A stretch of DNA of 64,000 bases from Phycisphaerae bacterium. GTDB taxonomy: Bacteria > Planctomycetota > Phycisphaerae > UBA1845. The stretch is from assembly GCA_028289375.1 (NCBI GenBank), contig JANQQK010000085.1, forward strand, positions 1 to 64,000. The letters run 5' to 3'. The translations under genes were made by a program, and so were the position numbers. The notes under the pieces are model-generated. The model saw only the letters and a list, made by a program, of their open reading frames with translations, searched no databases and was not told the origin of the DNA. Positions 1 through 60,349 of this stretch are shown here, piece by piece (position 1 is the first letter of the stretch; every line of letters begins with the position of its first letter).

Positions 1-39
1 CGGCTTGAAATTCGCGCCCATGATCGGAATGCGAACCAT
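1..39 (-). CDS. 5' end of an unidentified gene of the phage-like cassette (partial)
   Basis: Only the first 13 codons are inside the window. A good ribosome binding site, AGGAGT, lies six bases before the ATG at 39-37 on the minus strand. The peptide begins MVRIPIMGANFKP and no family can be assigned from it. It lies 10 bases downstream of the beta-helix gene, on the same strand, so it is probably the next gene of the same transcript. Confidence 0.6.
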   Translation of the reverse strand, partial: MVRIPIMGANFKP

Positions 40-49
40 GGTGGTACTC

Positions 50-1942
50 CTATCCGAAGGTAATGCCGGTCACGTTGTCGAGATCGACCGGGAAATCACT
101 GCCGTCTGTCGGGGCGTTGTTGCCTTCGAGGAAGAACAGTGGCAGTGAATCCGTATCGTCGGTGCCTCTCTTGTAGATGATGGCACCGCGAATGAAGGCG
201 TTGTTGGTTCCGCCGAGCGTCGGCCAGGTCAGGTCGTTGATCACCAGTTGCCCGCGATCATTCGTGTTGTCGGCGCTGACGGCCATCGTCACGGGCAGTC
301 GCGACGCACCTCCGAACCCGCCGGCGTAGTTGTCAGCGGCCGGTTCGTTGGCTGACGGATCATTCGCGTCATCCCCGCCGGTATCGATGGCGGTGATGTC
401 GGGATTGGGTGTGTGTGCCTGGTCGAGCAGCATGGCCTCGAACGTATCTGAGCCGAGGTTGAGCTGTCCGCTCCATAGCAACGCTGGAACGTGATTGTAC
501 ATGAAGTTTGCCACGGTAACGGTACTCCCTTCGCCATAGGCTCCAATGAACGTGCCGCCTTGCCCGGCGGTGAGCAGGGCGGATCCTTCTGCCAAGTGCA
601 AACCGGGGACGTCCGGTGTGCCGCCGGCGAGTACTGCCGCCGGGTTCGCTGTTCGATCCGCACTGTTGACGAACGGATCGCTGATCTGCGTGAGTGCGTT
701 GAGCTCCTGTCCGGAGACGTCACTGTGGTCGTTGTGGCTGGTCAGGTCGCCGATTGCGATCCAATTCGCCAGGGCAATCGGGTTGGCCCTCGCAAAATTA
801 AAGTGAATGTCCTTCTCGAGATTGCCATAGAAGATGCTGTTGATGACGGTGCACAATGAGTCGTTGAGCTCGTCCTCGTCGTGGGTGATGCCGTTCTTCG
901 TGTTGAACACCGACGTGCAGTGATTCACGGTGAGGTTGACGGCTGCGTTGTAGATTCCGAACTGGTTGTCGAAGGTGAGGCAGTATTCGAGCGAGCAATC
1001 GGCAGCTCCGCCAATACCATCACCTTCGGGCGAGTTGCCCCACACACCCGCCACAATCCCGCGACCGTTGCCAGCTCCTGCACCAGTGTGGCCGTACGCA
1101 ACGATGCGCCGGACCGTGGTACGGTGCGATCCGATTGCCAAATCGACTCCGTCGTCGCCGTTGTTCGCAACAATGCAGTCAATGATTTCGTTGTCTTTCG
1201 CGCCAAACGCCTGGATACCATCGCCGTCGCCGGCATCCTGCGTGTTGTCGTGGCAGTAGCAGTGCCTGACGATGCAGTAGCGTGCCCCCTCGTCGGGATC
1301 AGTCTGTACACCGTTGGTCACGCTTCCCTGAAGGACGATTCCGCGACCACAATTCCAGACCTCGCAGAACTCAACCACGCAATAGTGCGCTCGACTGCCA
1401 ATGACGATACCCGGCAGGTTGCTGGGTGATCCGCCAATCGTGTCAAGGTTGTCGTGGGCCTTGATGCCGATGACGTTGATGTAGTCGGAGTCCTGGACGC
1501 GGAAGAGCCGCTCCCTGCCCTCCTTCACGGTGATGTTGCGGTAGGTGACGTATTGCTGGAATTCGATCCTGACGCACTCGTTGTGCGACAGCTCACCGTC
1601 GTATTCAACAGGTTCATTGACAGGGTCGTACGCCTCGAAGGTGACACGTGCGCCGGATGTGCCCGAGATCTCAACATCATGAACCGGCTCAACTTGGAAA
1701 GTATCGGGGAACTGCGACGTATAATCGACGCCGCCCGTTTCGGCGCCACCCCGAATCAAGCACGTGAACGCCTGTCCTGGTACATGAGCCGCTTCGGCGT
1801 CCTTCGGATGGGCGTACGGATTGGCGATCGATCCGAGCGGCTGACCGGGGTCATAGGCCGGCTCTGTTTGTGCCGCTCGATTGATGTTGGCAAAAACAGT
1901 CGCCATCGCACTCAGCCCAATGACGAGGGTCAACGCCCTCAT
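50..1942 (-). CDS. Secreted right-handed beta-helix protein with a phage tail-like C-terminal part
   Basis: A 630-residue protein with an N-terminal hydrophobic segment that looks like a Sec signal peptide. Residues of roughly 60-400 show the repeating pattern of a right-handed parallel beta-helix (runs such as NxIxxCxVxxNxDDGV and repeated short Val/Ile-Asn strands), a fold of polysaccharide lyases and phage tailspikes. From about residue 470 the pattern changes to NFMYNHVPALL, a putative lifetime/charge-poor segment and a final FFLEGN region, which resembles small virion proteins of tailed phages that begin with a short 'nysk-x-ALL' motif. The ATG at 1942 is preferred to an upstream TTG because GAGGAG lies nine bases before it. 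Substrate unknown; tailspike or secreted lyase are both possible. Confidence 0.65.
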   Translation of the reverse strand: MRALTLVIGLSAMATVFANINRAAQTEPAYDPGQPLGSIANPYAHPKDAEAAHVPGQAFTCLIRGGAETGGVDYTSQFPDTFQVEPVHDVEISGTSGARVTFEAYDPVNEPVEYDGELSHNECVRIEFQQYVTYRNITVKEGRERLFRVQDSDYINVIGIKAHDNLDTIGGSPSNLPGIVIGSRAHYCVVEFCEVWNCGRGIVLQGSVTNGVQTDPDEGARYCIVRHCYCHDNTQDAGDGDGIQAFGAKDNEIIDCIVANNGDDGVDLAIGSHRTTVRRIVAYGHTGAGAGNGRGIVAGVWGNSPEGDGIGGAADCSLEYCLTFDNQFGIYNAAVNLTVNHCTSVFNTKNGITHDEDELNDSLCTVINSIFYGNLEKDIHFNFARANPIALANWIAIGDLTSHNDHSDVSGQELNALTQISDPFVNSADRTANPAAVLAGGTPDVPGLHLAEGSALLTAGQGGTFIGAYGEGSTVTVANFMYNHVPALLWSGQLNLGSDTFEAMLLDQAHTPNPDITAIDTGGDDANDPSANEPAADNYAGGFGGASRLPVTMAVSADNTNDRGQLVINDLTWPTLGGTNNAFIRGAIIYKRGTDDTDSLPLFFLEGNNAPTDGSDFPVDLDNVTGITFG

Positions 1943-1960
1943 GGTCAATCGCTCCTCAGA

Positions 1961-2521
1961 TCACACAAAACCACGCCACTTGCCCGGCTCCTGGCACCGC
2001 ATCTCGCAGATTGCGTTGTAGACCTGCTTCAGGTCCTTCGTGATGTCACGCATGTTGGCACCGGGGTATGGAATCTTCGAGAACAACGCCTCGAGCCCCG
2101 CTTGGACATGGCTCATCGACTTGTCGACACATGACTGCGCCAGTTGGCCGAGATCCTCAGCCGCCGGCGACACTGGTGCGTCGCACATTGCCTTGAGCTC
2201 ACCGGCGACGGCGCGGGTGAAGGGATTCAGTGGAATACGCCGGTCGGTCGTGTTCTCGACGGCTTGACCGTACATACGCTCGATCGCGTCATGGAGTGGC
2301 TTCAGCCAGTGAGCCAGTGCATCGGCGTTGGGCTGGCTCGAAGCGAATCGACGAAGAGCAGCCCGCACGTAGTTGAGCGACTTGTCGACGCACGATTGAA
2401 CCATGTCGGCCAACTCGATGCCTGTTGCCGACGTGTCCGATTCGAGCATCGCCCGCAGCTTGTGGCCGGTTGGTGCTGCAAACATGCTCAGCCCAGTGGT
2501 TGATTCCGCAACGGTAGTCAC
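1961..2521 (-). CDS. Hypothetical protein with an internal duplication
   Basis: A 186-residue soluble protein of unknown function. Two stretches repeat with a spacing of about 100 residues: the first contains QSCVDKSLNYV, the second QSCVDKSMSHV, each followed by an Ala/Leu-rich helix and then a segment ending in a predicted helix. This suggests two copies of one alpha-helical domain. The start is GTG at 2521 with AGGAG five bases upstream; the overlapping ATG two bases earlier runs straight into TGA. It directly follows the lipoprotein gene upstream, so translation is probably coupled. No signal peptide or membrane segment is visible. Confidence 0.6.
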   Translation of the reverse strand: MTTVAESTTGLSMFAAPTGHKLRAMLESDTSATGIELADMVQSCVDKSLNYVRAALRRFASSQPNADALAHWLKPLHDAIERMYGQAVENTTDRRIPLNPFTRAVAGELKAMCDAPVSPAAEDLGQLAQSCVDKSMSHVQAGLEALFSKIPYPGANMRDITKDLKQVYNAICEMRCQEPGKWRGFV

Positions 2522-2522
2522 A

Positions 2523-2810
2523 TCAGCTCCTAGACAGCTTCAATCGCAGTTGCCTGATAATCAGCCAGTAGAAAAGCCCACCCTGTAACGAAAGGCGGAC
2601 CTCGTTTCCGATCGCCAGCAGCCGCCCGGGCCACGGGTCATTCACGGCAATACTCTGTGTGTTCTCCTGCGTCACGTTGCCACCGGCGTCAGCGTGTTGC
2701 TTTGACTGCGGAGCGATTCTGGTTCGACCAAGCGACAGCCCAGTTCCGCACCCGCAAATCGCCCAGCCGCAGAACAGGACGATGACGCAGCTAGTTGCTC
2801 GGCGGAACAT
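2523..2810 (-). CDS. Small putative lipoprotein
   Basis: A 95-residue protein with a hydrophobic N-terminus ending in an ICGCG stretch, which resembles a lipobox, so export and lipid attachment are likely. The rest is short, polar in the middle and has a hydrophobic stretch (GGLFYWLIIRQLRL) near the C-terminus. The start lies inside the end of the preceding gene (20-base overlap), implying translational coupling. Overlapping small lipoprotein genes next to a membrane/coiled-coil protein are reminiscent of phage lysis cassettes, but no family is recognised. Confidence 0.5.
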   Translation of the reverse strand: MFRRATSCVIVLFCGWAICGCGTGLSLGRTRIAPQSKQHADAGGNVTQENTQSIAVNDPWPGRLLAIGNEVRLSLQGGLFYWLIIRQLRLKLSRS

Positions 2811-3090
2811 TGCTCGGCGGGCGTCCTGCTGCGGCGTTTGCCTGAAGGGAGATCATTGCGGTCACCGGCTGACGCAATCCGAATTCCTGCTTGGCATAGA
2901 ACCCGACGTCATTGCTCACATGAAGCTGTGCCGTCGCGGAGAGCCCAGAATTGTTGGCCGCCTCCATGTACGCGGCTAAACGTGCGATCTCTTGCTCGAT
3001 CTGTTCGTTGGTCGTGCCCTCACTCGGGGCACAGCCGATGAAGCAGACACAAAGCAGACAAAGAATGGCGGCGATCACGAAGTTCCTCAT
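2791..3090 (-). CDS. Small putative lipoprotein
   Basis: A 99-residue protein with a clear type II-like signal: a positively charged start, a long Leu/Ile/Cys-rich core and FIGCAPSEG, where the Cys would be lipidated. The mature part is mostly helical and Ala-rich. An in-frame ATG at 3096 directly abuts GGAG, so the ATG at 3090 (GGAG, six-base spacing) is chosen. It overlaps the next gene by 20 bases and follows the membrane/coiled-coil gene by 10 bases. Function unknown. Confidence 0.55.
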   Translation of the reverse strand: MRNFVIAAILCLLCVCFIGCAPSEGTTNEQIEQEIARLAAYMEAANNSGLSATAQLHVSNDVGFYAKQEFGLRQPVTAMISLQANAAAGRPPSNVPPSN

Positions 3091-3100
3091 GGTCATCTCC

Positions 3101-3367
3101 TTACTGGTCCCCGGACATCCCGCTCAGGCGTCCGGATAGGTGGGATAGGTCGCGAGCAATCGACCCGACGTCCTTGCCAATGTCGGTCACGGTCGTGTCG
3201 ATGCGTTTGATGGTTTGTCGATTCTGGGAAACTTGATCTTCGACCTGCGTGAACTCACGCGTGAAGTGAATGCCAAAGCTGATGACCGCGACGAACAGTG
3301 TCGCAAGCGGAACCCATTGAAGGACTTGCCGGCCGTTTCCATTCGGCGTTCCACTAGGCGGGCTCAT
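3101..3367 (-). CDS. Small membrane protein with a coiled coil
   Basis: An 88-residue protein: a short Pro/Gly-rich cytoplasmic tail, one membrane segment (about residues 17-36, VPLATLFVAVISFGIHF) and a heptad-patterned stretch (about 40-82) likely to form a coiled coil. Topology and size resemble small phage or secretion accessory proteins, but no family is recognised. The ATG at 3367 has GGAAGG ten bases upstream; an in-frame ATG-less extension upstream is Cys/Arg-rich and unlikely to be coding. It is the first gene of the minus-strand cassette, closest to the tRNA-derived repeat. Confidence 0.5.
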   Translation of the reverse strand: MSPPSGTPNGNGRQVLQWVPLATLFVAVISFGIHFTREFTQVEDQVSQNRQTIKRIDTTVTDIGKDVGSIARDLSHLSGRLSGMSGDQ

Positions 3368-3553
3368 GGCATCGCAACCTTCCATGTCGCGGGAGTACAA
3401 ATTGCCATCCGTGGCCTCCTGGAGGGGGGAATTGCGTCCTCTAGGGCATTGTGTGGACACGCCGCGTAATGGTCAAGAACTTACCCTCGGTAGAGGGGGG
3501 TGTAAATTCGCTAGAATCGGCACTTAGAGCCGCGAAAAGCGGAATCTAGGTTA

Positions 3554-3597
3554 GGCTGTTAACCGCTAGGTTCAAGGTTCGAGTCCTTGTCGAGGAG
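3554..3597 (+). repeat. tRNA 3' half, probable attachment-site core (tRNA-Asn-like, GTT anticodon)
   Basis: From the anticodon loop onward the sequence reads as a tRNA: CTGTTAA loop with anticodon GTT, CCGCT, a five-base variable loop, a perfect T arm (CAAGG-TTCGAGT-CCTTG), then acceptor TCGAGGA and discriminator G. Upstream of 3554 the pairing partners for the anticodon stem, D arm and 5' acceptor are absent, so this is not a complete tRNA gene. A copy that starts at the anticodon loop and runs to the 3' end is the usual form of an att core for tRNA-integrating elements. Which element it belongs to is inferred. Confidence 0.7.
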
Positions 3598-3605
3598 TTT
3601 TTCCG

Positions 3606-3857
3606 TTTCACATCTACATTCTCGAGAACGCCGATGGCCGATTCTATGTTGGCCAGACGTCTGACCTTGAGAAACGTTTGGCTGAGCACAATGCTGATCT
3701 GTCGCTGGGCGTAAGCTACGCGCGCAAACACGGCCCGTGGCAGTTGGTGTGGTCTGAAGAGCACGCGTCACGGTTGTCTGCAGTGCGGCGTGAGCGCAAG
3801 ATCAAGTCAATGAAGTCGTCGCGCTGGATCCGTGAGCATCTGCTGGGCGGCCGTTAA
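3606..3857 (+). CDS. GIY-YIG nuclease domain protein fused to a tRNA end, without a standard start codon
   Basis: Eighty-three codons encode a compact GIY-YIG nuclease domain (family including small URI-type and YhbQ-like proteins): the YIL...FYVGQT pair of strands, the catalytic-type Arg in LEKRLAEHN, a W-x-L-V-W strand, and a terminal helix with RRERKIKSMK. The frame is open back to a TAG at 3567 but contains no ATG, GTG, TTG or CTG; the codons just upstream are the tRNA acceptor end read as CRGVFP. Homologous proteins normally begin only one or two residues before this Phe-His, so it appears that the start was replaced by the tRNA junction. It may be a pseudogene, use a rare start, or be a remnant of an insertion cassette. 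Confidence 0.6.
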   Translation, partial: FHIYILENADGRFYVGQTSDLEKRLAEHNADLSLGVSYARKHGPWQLVWSEEHASRLSAVRRERKIKSMKSSRWIREHLLGGR

Positions 3858-3875
3858 TCCCGGCGCGCCGGGATT
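3856..3875. repeat. Perfect 20-bp palindrome at the cassette junction
   Basis: AATCC-CGGCGCGCCG-GGATT is fully self-complementary. It begins inside the TAA stop of the first GIY-YIG frame and ends inside the second tRNA 3' copy. It could fold as a hairpin, but lacks a following T run, so a terminator role is doubtful; a recombination relic is possible. Confidence 0.75.
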
Positions 3876-3900
3876 CAAGGTTCGAGTCCTTGTCGAGGAG
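3874..3900 (+). repeat. Second tRNA 3'-end remnant (T arm and acceptor)
   Basis: Identical to the T arm and 3' acceptor of the first copy (TTCAAGGTTCGAGTCCTTG then TCGAGGAG). The anticodon arm is missing: the upstream sequence is the palindrome instead. It is therefore a shorter tRNA relic, presumably from another integration or duplication. Confidence 0.75.
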
Positions 3901-3908
3901 TTTTGCCG

Positions 3909-3998
3909 TTTCACGTCTACATTCTCGAGAATGCCGATGGCCGATTCTACGTTGGCCAGACGTCTGATCTCGGGAAACGCCTCGCCAAGAAGAATTAG
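3909..3998 (+). pseudogene. Truncated GIY-YIG reading frame
   Basis: Twenty-nine codons nearly identical to the start of the upstream GIY-YIG frame (FHVYILENADGRFYVGQT) and then a TAG after GKRLAKKN. The second half of the domain is absent. Like the first copy it follows a tRNA acceptor end directly and has no start codon. It cannot make a functional nuclease and is best seen as a remnant. Confidence 0.7.
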
Positions 3999-4034: not shown

Positions 4035-5246
4035 TTAATCGACTACACCTTCGATGGTTTCGATGCCGTAAACCGGCGGGATGCCGGATTGCAGGTCGGC
4101 GCTGAGGCTCTCGCTGTCGACCAGCAGTTTGCCGTTTTCGAGGTACTTCTCACCGCGCAAATCCTGTGCCCATTCGATGATGGCGTCGATGGTGGGCACC
4201 GCGAGATCCATCTGCTGGGCCATCCACTTGGCGATGCAGACGCCATAGGAGATGTCGTCGGTGAAGAAGCGGTGGTCGGTGTCGATTACCCAATCGCCGT
4301 CGGGAAGCTGCTTCGTCGGCGGCTTGATGGCGCCGAGGGTCTTTGAAGTTGTGAAGGACTCACGGATGTCGGTGTTCTCGCTCATGTAGGACAGGCGCTC
4401 CGTGCCGAGGTAGTCGAGCATGTGCGGAAAGTCGCGATCGGGGAAGCGGGCTCGAATGCCGTCCCGCACCTTCGAGTAATCGTCATCGAGGGATCGCAGA
4501 AGGTCGGCGGACAAGTCATCGAAGTCGCGGTAGAAGTAGGGAATCGCCTCCTGCGTTTGCCAGCGACCGCCGTAGCGTTTGAAAAGACCGTAGCAGCGCG
4601 AGGGGTGGATGATCTGATTGTCGACCGACAAGGTCAGGGACAAGAAGCTGTCGGCCTGCTGGAAGGCGCCCTTGTCGAACCAATGGTGGCAGATCGCGTC
4701 GAGGAAGTTGCTGTTGAAGTCATCAAAGCGGTCGCGCGGCGACACGGCTGCGAGGTTGACCGCCTTGCAGCCATAGGTCACGCCGACGGAGCCATACGCG
4801 CGAACGCGGCAGATCCAGGGGATGAGTCCGACCGCGAAGGTGACGAGATTGTCGAGGCTGTGCTCGCGCTTGATCTCGCCGGTCATCCAATTGAAGCCGG
4901 CTTGCCCGTAGATGGTGCCGACATAGACGTCGCGGTCGCGGCGAAGATGGGGCGCGATCCGTCGCAGCGCGGCGCGGTAGCTGCACACCGGCATGCACAG
5001 GATGACAACATCGCTTTTTGGAATGACTGCGGCAGGATCGTCCGTGGCAAGACTCAGGTCGCCCGTCAGCGTTCGTTCGACTTCCTGGTCGATCGATTGC
5101 TGCTGCAACTCGATTTGTTGCGACCAGTCACCCGGCCGGCGTGTCAGCAGTTGCACCTTGTGACCGGCGCTGGACAGTAGCGGAATCAGGACGTGGGCGC
5201 TTGATCCACCGCCAACGATCGTCACCACAAGCTCATCACGACTCAT
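4035..5246 (-). CDS. NAD/NADP octopine/nopaline dehydrogenase family protein
   Basis: A 403-residue oxidoreductase. Residues 6-30 form a Rossmann dinucleotide-binding start (VTIVGGGSSAHVLIPLL), followed by an Arg-containing loop (TRRPGD), and SDVVILCMPV marks the fourth strand. The C-terminal two thirds are helical, as in opine dehydrogenases, which reductively condense an amino acid with an alpha-keto acid. The family is certain only at that level; the substrate cannot be read. The ATG at 5246 is chosen because GGAGGT sits five bases upstream; an adjacent ATG at 5249 is too close to it. Monocistronic on the minus strand, ending next to the tRNA/GIY-YIG repeats. Confidence 0.75.
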   Translation of the reverse strand: MSRDELVVTIVGGGSSAHVLIPLLSSAGHKVQLLTRRPGDWSQQIELQQQSIDQEVERTLTGDLSLATDDPAAVIPKSDVVILCMPVCSYRAALRRIAPHLRRDRDVYVGTIYGQAGFNWMTGEIKREHSLDNLVTFAVGLIPWICRVRAYGSVGVTYGCKAVNLAAVSPRDRFDDFNSNFLDAICHHWFDKGAFQQADSFLSLTLSVDNQIIHPSRCYGLFKRYGGRWQTQEAIPYFYRDFDDLSADLLRSLDDDYSKVRDGIRARFPDRDFPHMLDYLGTERLSYMSENTDIRESFTTSKTLGAIKPPTKQLPDGDWVIDTDHRFFTDDISYGVCIAKWMAQQMDLAVPTIDAIIEWAQDLRGEKYLENGKLLVDSESLSADLQSGIPPVYGIETIEGVVD

Positions 5247-5446
5247 CATGGACCTCCACAGGCTAACTCGAGTCGTGGAGTGTACTGCCAAGCGATCCCT
5301 GCAGCCAATTGCGGTGGCTGTGGGCGCGTTGACGCGTACGCCGACGCACTTCTCTCGTGGAACGATTCGGAATCCTGGGTTACGATCCGATTTCGATCGT
5401 TGTTTCACAGGCCCTCGGTCCATGCACCATGCGCGGAGCATCCATC

Positions 5447-58968: not shown

Positions 58969-60349
58969 CGTCCGGCTTCTTCTTGCGACGCTTCGGAGGG
59001 CGGCGTCCCTCGCGGACGTCTTCATCAAATGTCTTCTTGCGTCGCAAAATGTGATGGTAATGCTGCGCGAAGCGATGGGCTTCGTCGCGCACCTGCTGCA
59101 ACAGGCGGAGCGCTTCGTTGTTTCGTGGCAGTCGCACCGGCATGCTCTTCGCTTGGATGTAAATCTCTTCCATCCTCTTGGCCAAGGAAATCACCATCGG
59201 CGGCTGCATGTTCATGTCGTCGAACGCCTCCTGCGCCGCGTGCAACTGCCCCAGCCCGCCGTCGATCAGAATCACATCCGGATACAACTCCTCCCCCTCC
59301 GCCGCATAGCGATACCGCCGTGACACGACCTCCCGGATCGACGCGTAATCGTCCGATCCCTCGACCGTCCGAATCTTGAACCGCTTGTACCCGTTCTTGA
59401 AAGGCCGACCGTCGATGAAACAGACCAGCGACCCGACCGTCTCCTCGCCCATCAGATTGGCGATGTCGATCCCTTCGATGCTGCGTGGCGGCTCGTCGAG
59501 ATCGAGCAAATCACCGAGCTTTTCCAGGCCTTTCGTGGGATCGATGAAGAAGGCTTCGGGTTGCACATCCGTTTCAACGTCGCCCGAAAGCGACAGCCCC
59601 TCGATCGCCTTGATTCGGTCCCGAATCCGCGCCGCCTCCATGAAGTTCCGCTCGTTCGCCGCCTCCTGCATCTCGCGTGTCATCTGCCGCACGATCACGC
59701 TCCGCTTGCTGGCCATGAACTTCTTGAACCGGTCGATGTCCTTCTTGTAGTCCTCCTTGCTGATCAGATCGGCACAGGGCGCGGTGCACTGATTGATCGC
59801 GTGCAACAGGCAGGGCCTGAAGTACTTCCGCGATTCGTCATCCGCGCGAATGTCGAGTTCGCACGTGCGATACTTGAATACCTTCTGAATCGCGTTCACC
59901 GCCATCCGCGCCGCCGACGGACTCGAGAACGGCCCATACAGCTTGCTCCCCTTGATCCGCGGCGTTCGCGTGACGTACACCCCCGGAAAATCCTCGCGCG
60001 TCGTGATCTCGATGTAGGGAAAGGTCTTGTCATCCTTCATCATCACGTTGAACGGCGGCTGAATGTCCTTGATAAGCCGGTTTTCCTTCAGCAGCGCGTC
60101 GACCTCGGTCTCGCAGTCGAGAAAGTCCACATCGACGACCATGTTCGCCATCCTCGCGATCTCAGGCCCACGCGACGCCAGCAGATCCGCCGACGGCTGA
60201 AAATAGCTGCTCACCCGCGACCGCAGGTCCTTCGCTTTTCCGACGTACAGCACCCGCCCGTCGTCGTCCTTCATCAGGTAGACGCCCGGCTGCTTCGGCA
60301 GATTGGCGATGTGTTCGCGGAGTTTGTCGAGGCGTTCGTCGTGGCTCAT
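58949..60349 (-). CDS. uvrC: UvrC excinuclease subunit lacking the C-terminal (HhH)2 region
   Basis: A 466-residue UvrC. GIY-YIG nuclease at residues 20-100 (PGVYLMKDDDGRVLYVGKAKDLRSRV region), a Cys cluster (163, 180, 188, 192) in the position of the UvrC iron-sulfur site, a UVR helix pair (about 203-240), and the RNase H-like domain with Asp295 (GIDIANL), Asp363 (LIDGGLGQ) and His425 (DEAHRFA). The end is a basic tail (KRRKKKPDD) with no helix-hairpin-helix pair, which normally follows in 600-residue UvrC. The ATG at 60349 excludes an upstream non-family lead. Damage incision partner of UvrAB, not in the window. Confidence 0.9.
   Translation of the reverse strand: MSHDERLDKLREHIANLPKQPGVYLMKDDDGRVLYVGKAKDLRSRVSSYFQPSADLLASRGPEIARMANMVVDVDFLDCETEVDALLKENRLIKDIQPPFNVMMKDDKTFPYIEITTREDFPGVYVTRTPRIKGSKLYGPFSSPSAARMAVNAIQKVFKYRTCELDIRADDESRKYFRPCLLHAINQCTAPCADLISKEDYKKDIDRFKKFMASKRSVIVRQMTREMQEAANERNFMEAARIRDRIKAIEGLSLSGDVETDVQPEAFFIDPTKGLEKLGDLLDLDEPPRSIEGIDIANLMGEETVGSLVCFIDGRPFKNGYKRFKIRTVEGSDDYASIREVVSRRYRYAAEGEELYPDVILIDGGLGQLHAAQEAFDDMNMQPPMVISLAKRMEEIYIQAKSMPVRLPRNNEALRLLQQVRDEAHRFAQHYHHILRRKKTFDEDVREGRRPPKRRKKKPDDATSNE

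Follow-up and report, generated by a model that had tools for sequence, protein, structure and literature searches.

The question raised by this locus is how the 3′ end of a tRNA gene and the reading frame of a small nuclease come to lie side by side twice over, between positions 3554 and 3998 of the window, that is, of the whole 64,000-nucleotide stretch of DNA analysed here (contig C37, positions 1-64000, of genome G000, an assembly of 4.99 Mb in 94 contigs). The original prediction described two tRNA-Asn 3′ ends, each directly abutted by a GIY-YIG frame, of which the first is complete beyond the junction and the second cut short, and this description is borne out: a direct repeat of 122 nucleotides with 89% identity links positions 3571-3692 to 3874-3995, the first frame gives a Pfam GIY-YIG match of 60 bits, and the second, truncated after about 33 residues, gives one of 27 bits. 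As to the tRNA portions, positions 3554-3597 are the same as positions 30-73 of the genome's own tRNA-Asn at 44 of 44 nucleotides, or at 48 of 48 if the TTTT that follows is included, so that the tRNA identity is certain and chance can be excluded; the second piece (3874-3900, plus strand) is identical to positions 47-73 of the same gene, comprising the T arm and the 3′ strand of the acceptor. These positions are all that is left of a tRNA in the two copies; ARAGORN calls no tRNA in the window, and Rfam gives no match over the window at gathering threshold.

The first frame (plus strand, 3600-3857, with its stop codon TAA at 3855-3857) belongs to the GIY-YIG superfamily (PF01541): its score of 60 bits (E 2.7e-16) compares with a cut-off of 22.6, and it has the catalytic Tyr/Tyr/Gly/Arg/Glu set, the residues kept in the alignment being Y8, Y18, G20, R28, H32 and E67 (one sequence in that alignment, L098, is in the wrong frame, which leaves the residues cited here unaffected). 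Its start slot (3600-3602) is occupied by TTT, and to this extent the two frames were rightly called start-codon-less; the term does not fit the second (plus strand, 3903-3998), which has a possible TTG start at 3903-3905 and which, as judged from the repeat alignment and Pfam, diverges before reaching a TAG stop at 3996-3998. Because the start slot of copy 1 is TTT and copy 2 is cut short, neither looks intact, and the locus is probably dead. The earlier account did not mention the palindrome AATCCCGGCGCGCCGGGATT (3856-3875), which separates copy 1 from the second piece of tRNA and occupies the place that the anticodon arm would have in the latter; its 16-base core occurs 31 times in the genome and not at all in a relative of the same genus. 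Apart from these copies the only GIY-YIG domain found in the 4.99 Mb of the genome is at 60065-60289 of the window, on the minus strand within an open frame of 536 amino acids. The gene at 4035-5441, beside the cassette, appears by eye to encode a large dehydrogenase-like protein and is possibly foreign; a search of 50 relatives returned no homologue of it at E<1e-50, so that it offers no marker of synteny on that side.

What an intact unit looks like can be seen in relatives of the same order, where the arrangement runs from an intact tRNA through the GIY-YIG gene (about 80-100 codons) and a palindrome to a second tRNA 3′ part, which begins at a tRNA loop and in which the anticodon arm, or sometimes the T arm, is often replaced by a palindrome. 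The best protein relatives lie right behind an intact tRNA-Asn in six genomes (G035, G047, G054, G003, G088 and G089), and the second tRNA copy is also present in the first five of these and, again with an intact tRNA-Asn and the GIY-YIG gene, in G599. In most of the relatives from this order there is a TTG codon one or two bases past the tRNA discriminator, with TCG in its place in G035; since relatives start either in this way or with ATG, absence of a start codon is not a general trait, the unusual route of expression once suggested is not supported as one either, and a frame read through the tRNA as a start-codon-less fusion is rejected; a standard start codon at homologous loci was the very result by which the original prediction said that this idea would fail. 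The frame in these relatives runs up to, or a little way into, a copy of the D part of the tRNA, after which a TCC..GGA palindrome stands in for the anticodon arm on its 5′ side and is followed by TTAACCGC and the tRNA 3′ half, the whole second piece being longer than the window's 3874-3900. In most cases the second copy matches the host's own tRNA, unusual T-stem pairs included (L005, L082 and L086), and the cassette also exists in tRNA-Pro versions (L008 and L086). The same form, with a terminator between the tRNA and the gene, is found in G599, which is complete and a single contig, so that it cannot be an assembly artefact.

That the unit inserts, and that it does so with a repeat of the tRNA 3′ end, is shown by the tRNA-Asn loci of two genomes of one genus, of which G088 is occupied and G032 empty. 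G088 is longer by a net 333 bp and its insertion repeats 42 bp of the tRNA 3′ end, whilst the two loci align at 95% identity over the 165 bp upstream, tRNA included, and at 86% over the 296 bp downstream; the gene is thus present in one genome and absent from the other at an otherwise orthologous site, which is the pattern expected of a free-standing homing endonuclease element. In the occupied allele the tRNA is intact, any alteration being confined to the second copy. Growth in tandem is equally plain, with tandem units at L006, L007, L186, L188, L195 and L196, and with two loci, L193 and L205, that are about 98% identical and differ by roughly one unit. The cassette is thus a unit of about 0.33 kb with a single small nuclease gene, and bacteria that are only distantly related have it behind their tRNA genes.

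The first tRNA end in the window had been taken as part of the cassette, but it is best explained as the attachment site of an unrelated, integrase-borne element. The sole intact tRNA-Asn found in G000 is on contig C38, with a tyrosine integrase of 341 amino acids directly behind it (Pfam 6e-8, PHROG integrase 3e-27), and the 48 identical nucleotides at 3554-3601 (plus strand) correspond to the 3′ part of that tRNA and its first four flanking bases. A GGGGGTGTA-type repeat just before 3554 recurs, inverted, just behind the C38 tRNA, and a GAGGGGGGTGTAAA-type repeat near 3484 has inverted counterparts beside it, so that an integrase beside a tRNA, an identical att core and shared arm-type repeats are all present; in addition, the region of C38 upstream of the tRNA-Asn is orthologous to the tRNA-Asn locus of G001, of the same genus. 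On these observations the window cassette is best read as the old downstream flank of tRNA-Asn, now displaced, and positions 3554-3601 as the attR of an integrative element of about 25.7 kb that has split tRNA-Asn from that flank, positions 1-3553 being the right-hand end of the element (prophage-like or an island). The two tRNA pieces of the window would then differ in origin, the first being attR and the second the cassette's own. The figure of 25.7 kb holds if C38:1-22177 joins C37:1, a join that is inferred across a contig break, the ends of the element lying on two contigs between which no overlap was found. Fragments of the tRNA-Asn 3′ end covering about positions 29-73 recur in many genomes of the order (L135, L136, L137, L139, L141, L145-L148 and L152), at L137 with an integrase-like frame right behind the tRNA, and tRNA-Asn looks like an integration hot spot. 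The idea that all such fragments in the order mark GIY-YIG cassettes was rejected, as there is no GIY frame beside those in L135-L148.

The cassette is by no means confined to the Planctomycetota. Among 198 genomes of the order around L038, in the Bacteroidota, 26 GIY genes pass 1e-12, and in 17 of these a tRNA on the same strand ends less than 400 bp upstream, against a random expectation of about 0.06; the query used to pick these matches was itself linked to a tRNA, but shared ancestry by itself would not place the genes behind different isotypes. The isotypes include Ser, Pro, Leu, Val, Asp, Asn, Arg, Met, Ala and Lys; across Planctomycetota and Bacteroidota, at least ten isotypes have the cassette behind them. 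The search of related genomes that the original prediction proposed has in this way revealed the arrangement behind many isotypes, together with presence and absence at one orthologous site. Nearly all the Bacteroidota genes are flanked by direct repeats, which begin in one of the tRNA loops (D, anticodon or T), span the acceptor and often run on through the terminator, as at L182 and at L038 (about 105 bp, identical). Behind two of the genes (L199 and L201) the intact tRNA follows within a few bases, and at L199 a partial copy with a palindrome precedes the gene; several others belong to arrays that run off the end of a contig, and for the related genes at L192 and L200 no tRNA was found nearby. 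In a tree, the nucleases that are linked to tRNAs and resemble the window's group in a clade of their own, away from GIY proteins without such linkage, and a single Bacteroidota clade (support 100/95) brings different isotypes together; the weaker, UPF0213-like GIY matches in the cassette-bearing genomes of the window's order are not adjacent to tRNAs in the manner of the cassette. Duplication of tRNA genes is common, and one might ask whether ordinary tandem duplication with chance neighbouring genes would suffice, but such recurrence already contradicts this: distant phyla agree in nuclease clade, gene order and strand, and this, together with the empty-site pair, leaves it scarcely credible.

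A more serious proposal is that the GIY-YIG gene is cargo, and the cassette a passive passenger which tyrosine integrases move in trans by way of the tRNA 3′ att site. Elements that target tRNA genes by means of tyrosine integrases do rebuild the 3′ end of the tRNA and create a direct repeat of it, just as is seen with the cassette, so that an integrase acting in trans could move it; moreover, other elements of the same order end in tRNA-Asn positions of about 29-73, one of them with an integrase in view. What makes this improbable is that the nuclease gene is the only gene of the cassette, which has no integrase, that distant phyla share this one nuclease clade, and that the start of the repeat varies from one tRNA loop to another and the repeat may take in the terminator (L038 and L182 again), unlike a fixed att core.

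The frame is, besides, a selected protein: dN/dS is about 0.2 across four pairs, for which the respective values of dN and dS are 0.095/0.48 for the window copies (29 codons), 0.015/0.085 for L184/L183, 0.014/0.053 for L193/L205 and 0.037/0.178 for L082/L006, which demonstrates purifying selection. The solved sequences closest to it are 1zg2 (UPF0213; E 7e-9) and SLX1 (E 1e-3); the UPF0213 proteins (1zg2 and 1ywl) and SLX1 have the catalytic residues in common with the cassette nuclease, although the UPF0213-like proteins that lack tRNA linkage form a separate clade in the tree. In fungi and animals SLX1 needs SLX4. Around the gene, no group I intron RNA was matched in Rfam at gathering threshold, the sole NCBIfam match being far under its cut-off, and phage records contained only distant GIY proteins, with at best about 41% identity.

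The closest tested system is SegB, a free-standing GIY-YIG homing endonuclease of T-even phages, which cuts DNA of the tRNA region, drives tandem amplification of a unit of tRNA and segB, and is found near many isotypes (PMC13096335). Like the cassette, SegB has its GIY-YIG gene beside tRNA genes; it differs in that it belongs to phages, whereas the cassette lies in the chromosome, directly against the 3′ end of the tRNA, and closes with a palindrome and often an arm-replaced tRNA copy, and in that the cassette nuclease is nearest in sequence to UPF0213 and SLX1. It is plausible that the cassette works like SegB, in the sense of likeness rather than membership, and on balance it seems fairly probable that what survives in the window is the decayed form of a selfish nuclease cassette of this kind, one that targets tRNA genes. 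The putative nuclease would cut tRNA-gene DNA, probably at a loop able to form a hairpin, and repair of the break against a copy bearing the cassette would insert the unit along with a second tRNA 3′ end, leaving the host a working tRNA; the arm-replaced second copy would be a remnant and may no longer be cuttable. In G000 the element of about 25.7 kb would later have entered the same tRNA-Asn and severed the cassette from its tRNA, after which the cassette presumably decayed, with loss of the TTG in copy 1 and truncation of copy 2. The proposal of a mobile cassette that rebuilds tRNA 3′ ends accordingly survives as regards a recurrent, tRNA-tied unit with a 3′ repeat at its far end and an intact tRNA left behind, though not as regards the first tRNA end of the window. 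That movement is driven by the nuclease is what we infer from these sequences. Small GIY-YIG proteins of this clade do in any case lie in a defined, repeated and insertable unit behind tRNA genes in distant phyla, and if their nuclease is the driver, the cassette would rank with the smallest known mobile units that are autonomous, using an essential gene as its home and leaving it unharmed. No description of nuclease cassettes at tRNA tails was found in the literature searched, which takes in few subscription papers, and the cassette appears to be a selfish element of a kind not yet described.

The palindromes suggest yet another arrangement, in which they are themselves the mobile unit, comparable to REP, with the GIY-YIG protein as their enzyme as RAYT is for REP, and tRNA copies as one class among their hairpin targets. 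The window palindrome TCCCGGCGCGCCGGGA is found 31 times in G000 and 58 times in G047, but never in the same-genus G001; in all, 20 of 60 relatives contain it, and most others have none. Elsewhere in G000 it replaces the tip of other REP-like repeat hairpins (for instance GTCAGGTCAA..GGACCTGAC), which in G001 are unfilled, with the tip GCGNAGC, one unfilled copy remaining in G000. Genomes with at least four copies of the palindrome more often have a tRNA-linked GIY gene (5 of 12 against 3 of 48; Fisher p=0.006, uncorrected for kinship), and the gene at L203 has palindromes on both sides. On the other hand, no such GIY gene was found in the palindrome-rich G005, G006 and G019 (some genomes being incomplete), and the sequences of the palindromes vary from cassette to cassette. 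Known REP/RAYT systems likewise consist of short dispersed palindromes, some of them beside a nuclease gene, but their enzyme is a tyrosine transposase, whereas the gene here is a GIY-YIG with no palindrome-flanked tyrosine transposase, and the palindromes replace hairpin tips and tRNA arms; we regard this arrangement as quite improbable. A wider claim, which joins the preferred homing-type cassette to these hairpins, is that a separate class of selfish elements exists across phyla, in which a structure-specific GIY-YIG nuclease would cut the hairpin loops of tRNA genes and spread both itself and tip-replacing palindromes, leaving anticodon-less tRNA copies; this is a tentative idea, to be given rather less than even weight. 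Were movement indeed driven by the nuclease, it would offer a candidate for the enzyme by which some short palindromic repeats arose.

The altered copies can be extensive: at L203 (tRNA-Leu) both the anticodon and the T arm of the second copy are TCCCGA..TCGGGA palindromes, the variable arm being kept. It could be argued from such replacement of arms by other hairpins, and from a full-length tRNA-Pro copy at L193 (1265-1340) in which only the anticodon arm is replaced and which ARAGORN calls tRNA-Stop, that the second copies act as RNAs in their own right, for instance as decoys for nucleases that cut anticodons, and that the cassette is a module of defence or regulation. In most copies, however, the 5′ strand of the acceptor is missing, replacement extends to T arms, and the predicted folds contain no cloverleaf (a fourth sequence, on the wrong strand, was left out), all of which makes a functional RNA very unlikely.

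Arm-replaced copies can also enter tRNA annotations, where they explain some false calls of tRNA-Stop, -Gln and -Cys; ARAGORN itself returns tRNA-Stop or tRNA-Cys for those at L193:1265-1340 and L208:1727-1811 (both reverse complement). One Bacteroidia genome has tandem arrays of tRNA pieces with a period of about 95-125 and no GIY gene in view (L142, L143 and L144), in which D-loop and/or anticodon arms are replaced by TCCCG..CGGGA palindromes, and arrays of palindrome-bearing tRNA copies also occur upstream of intact tRNAs, at L010, L140 and L151.
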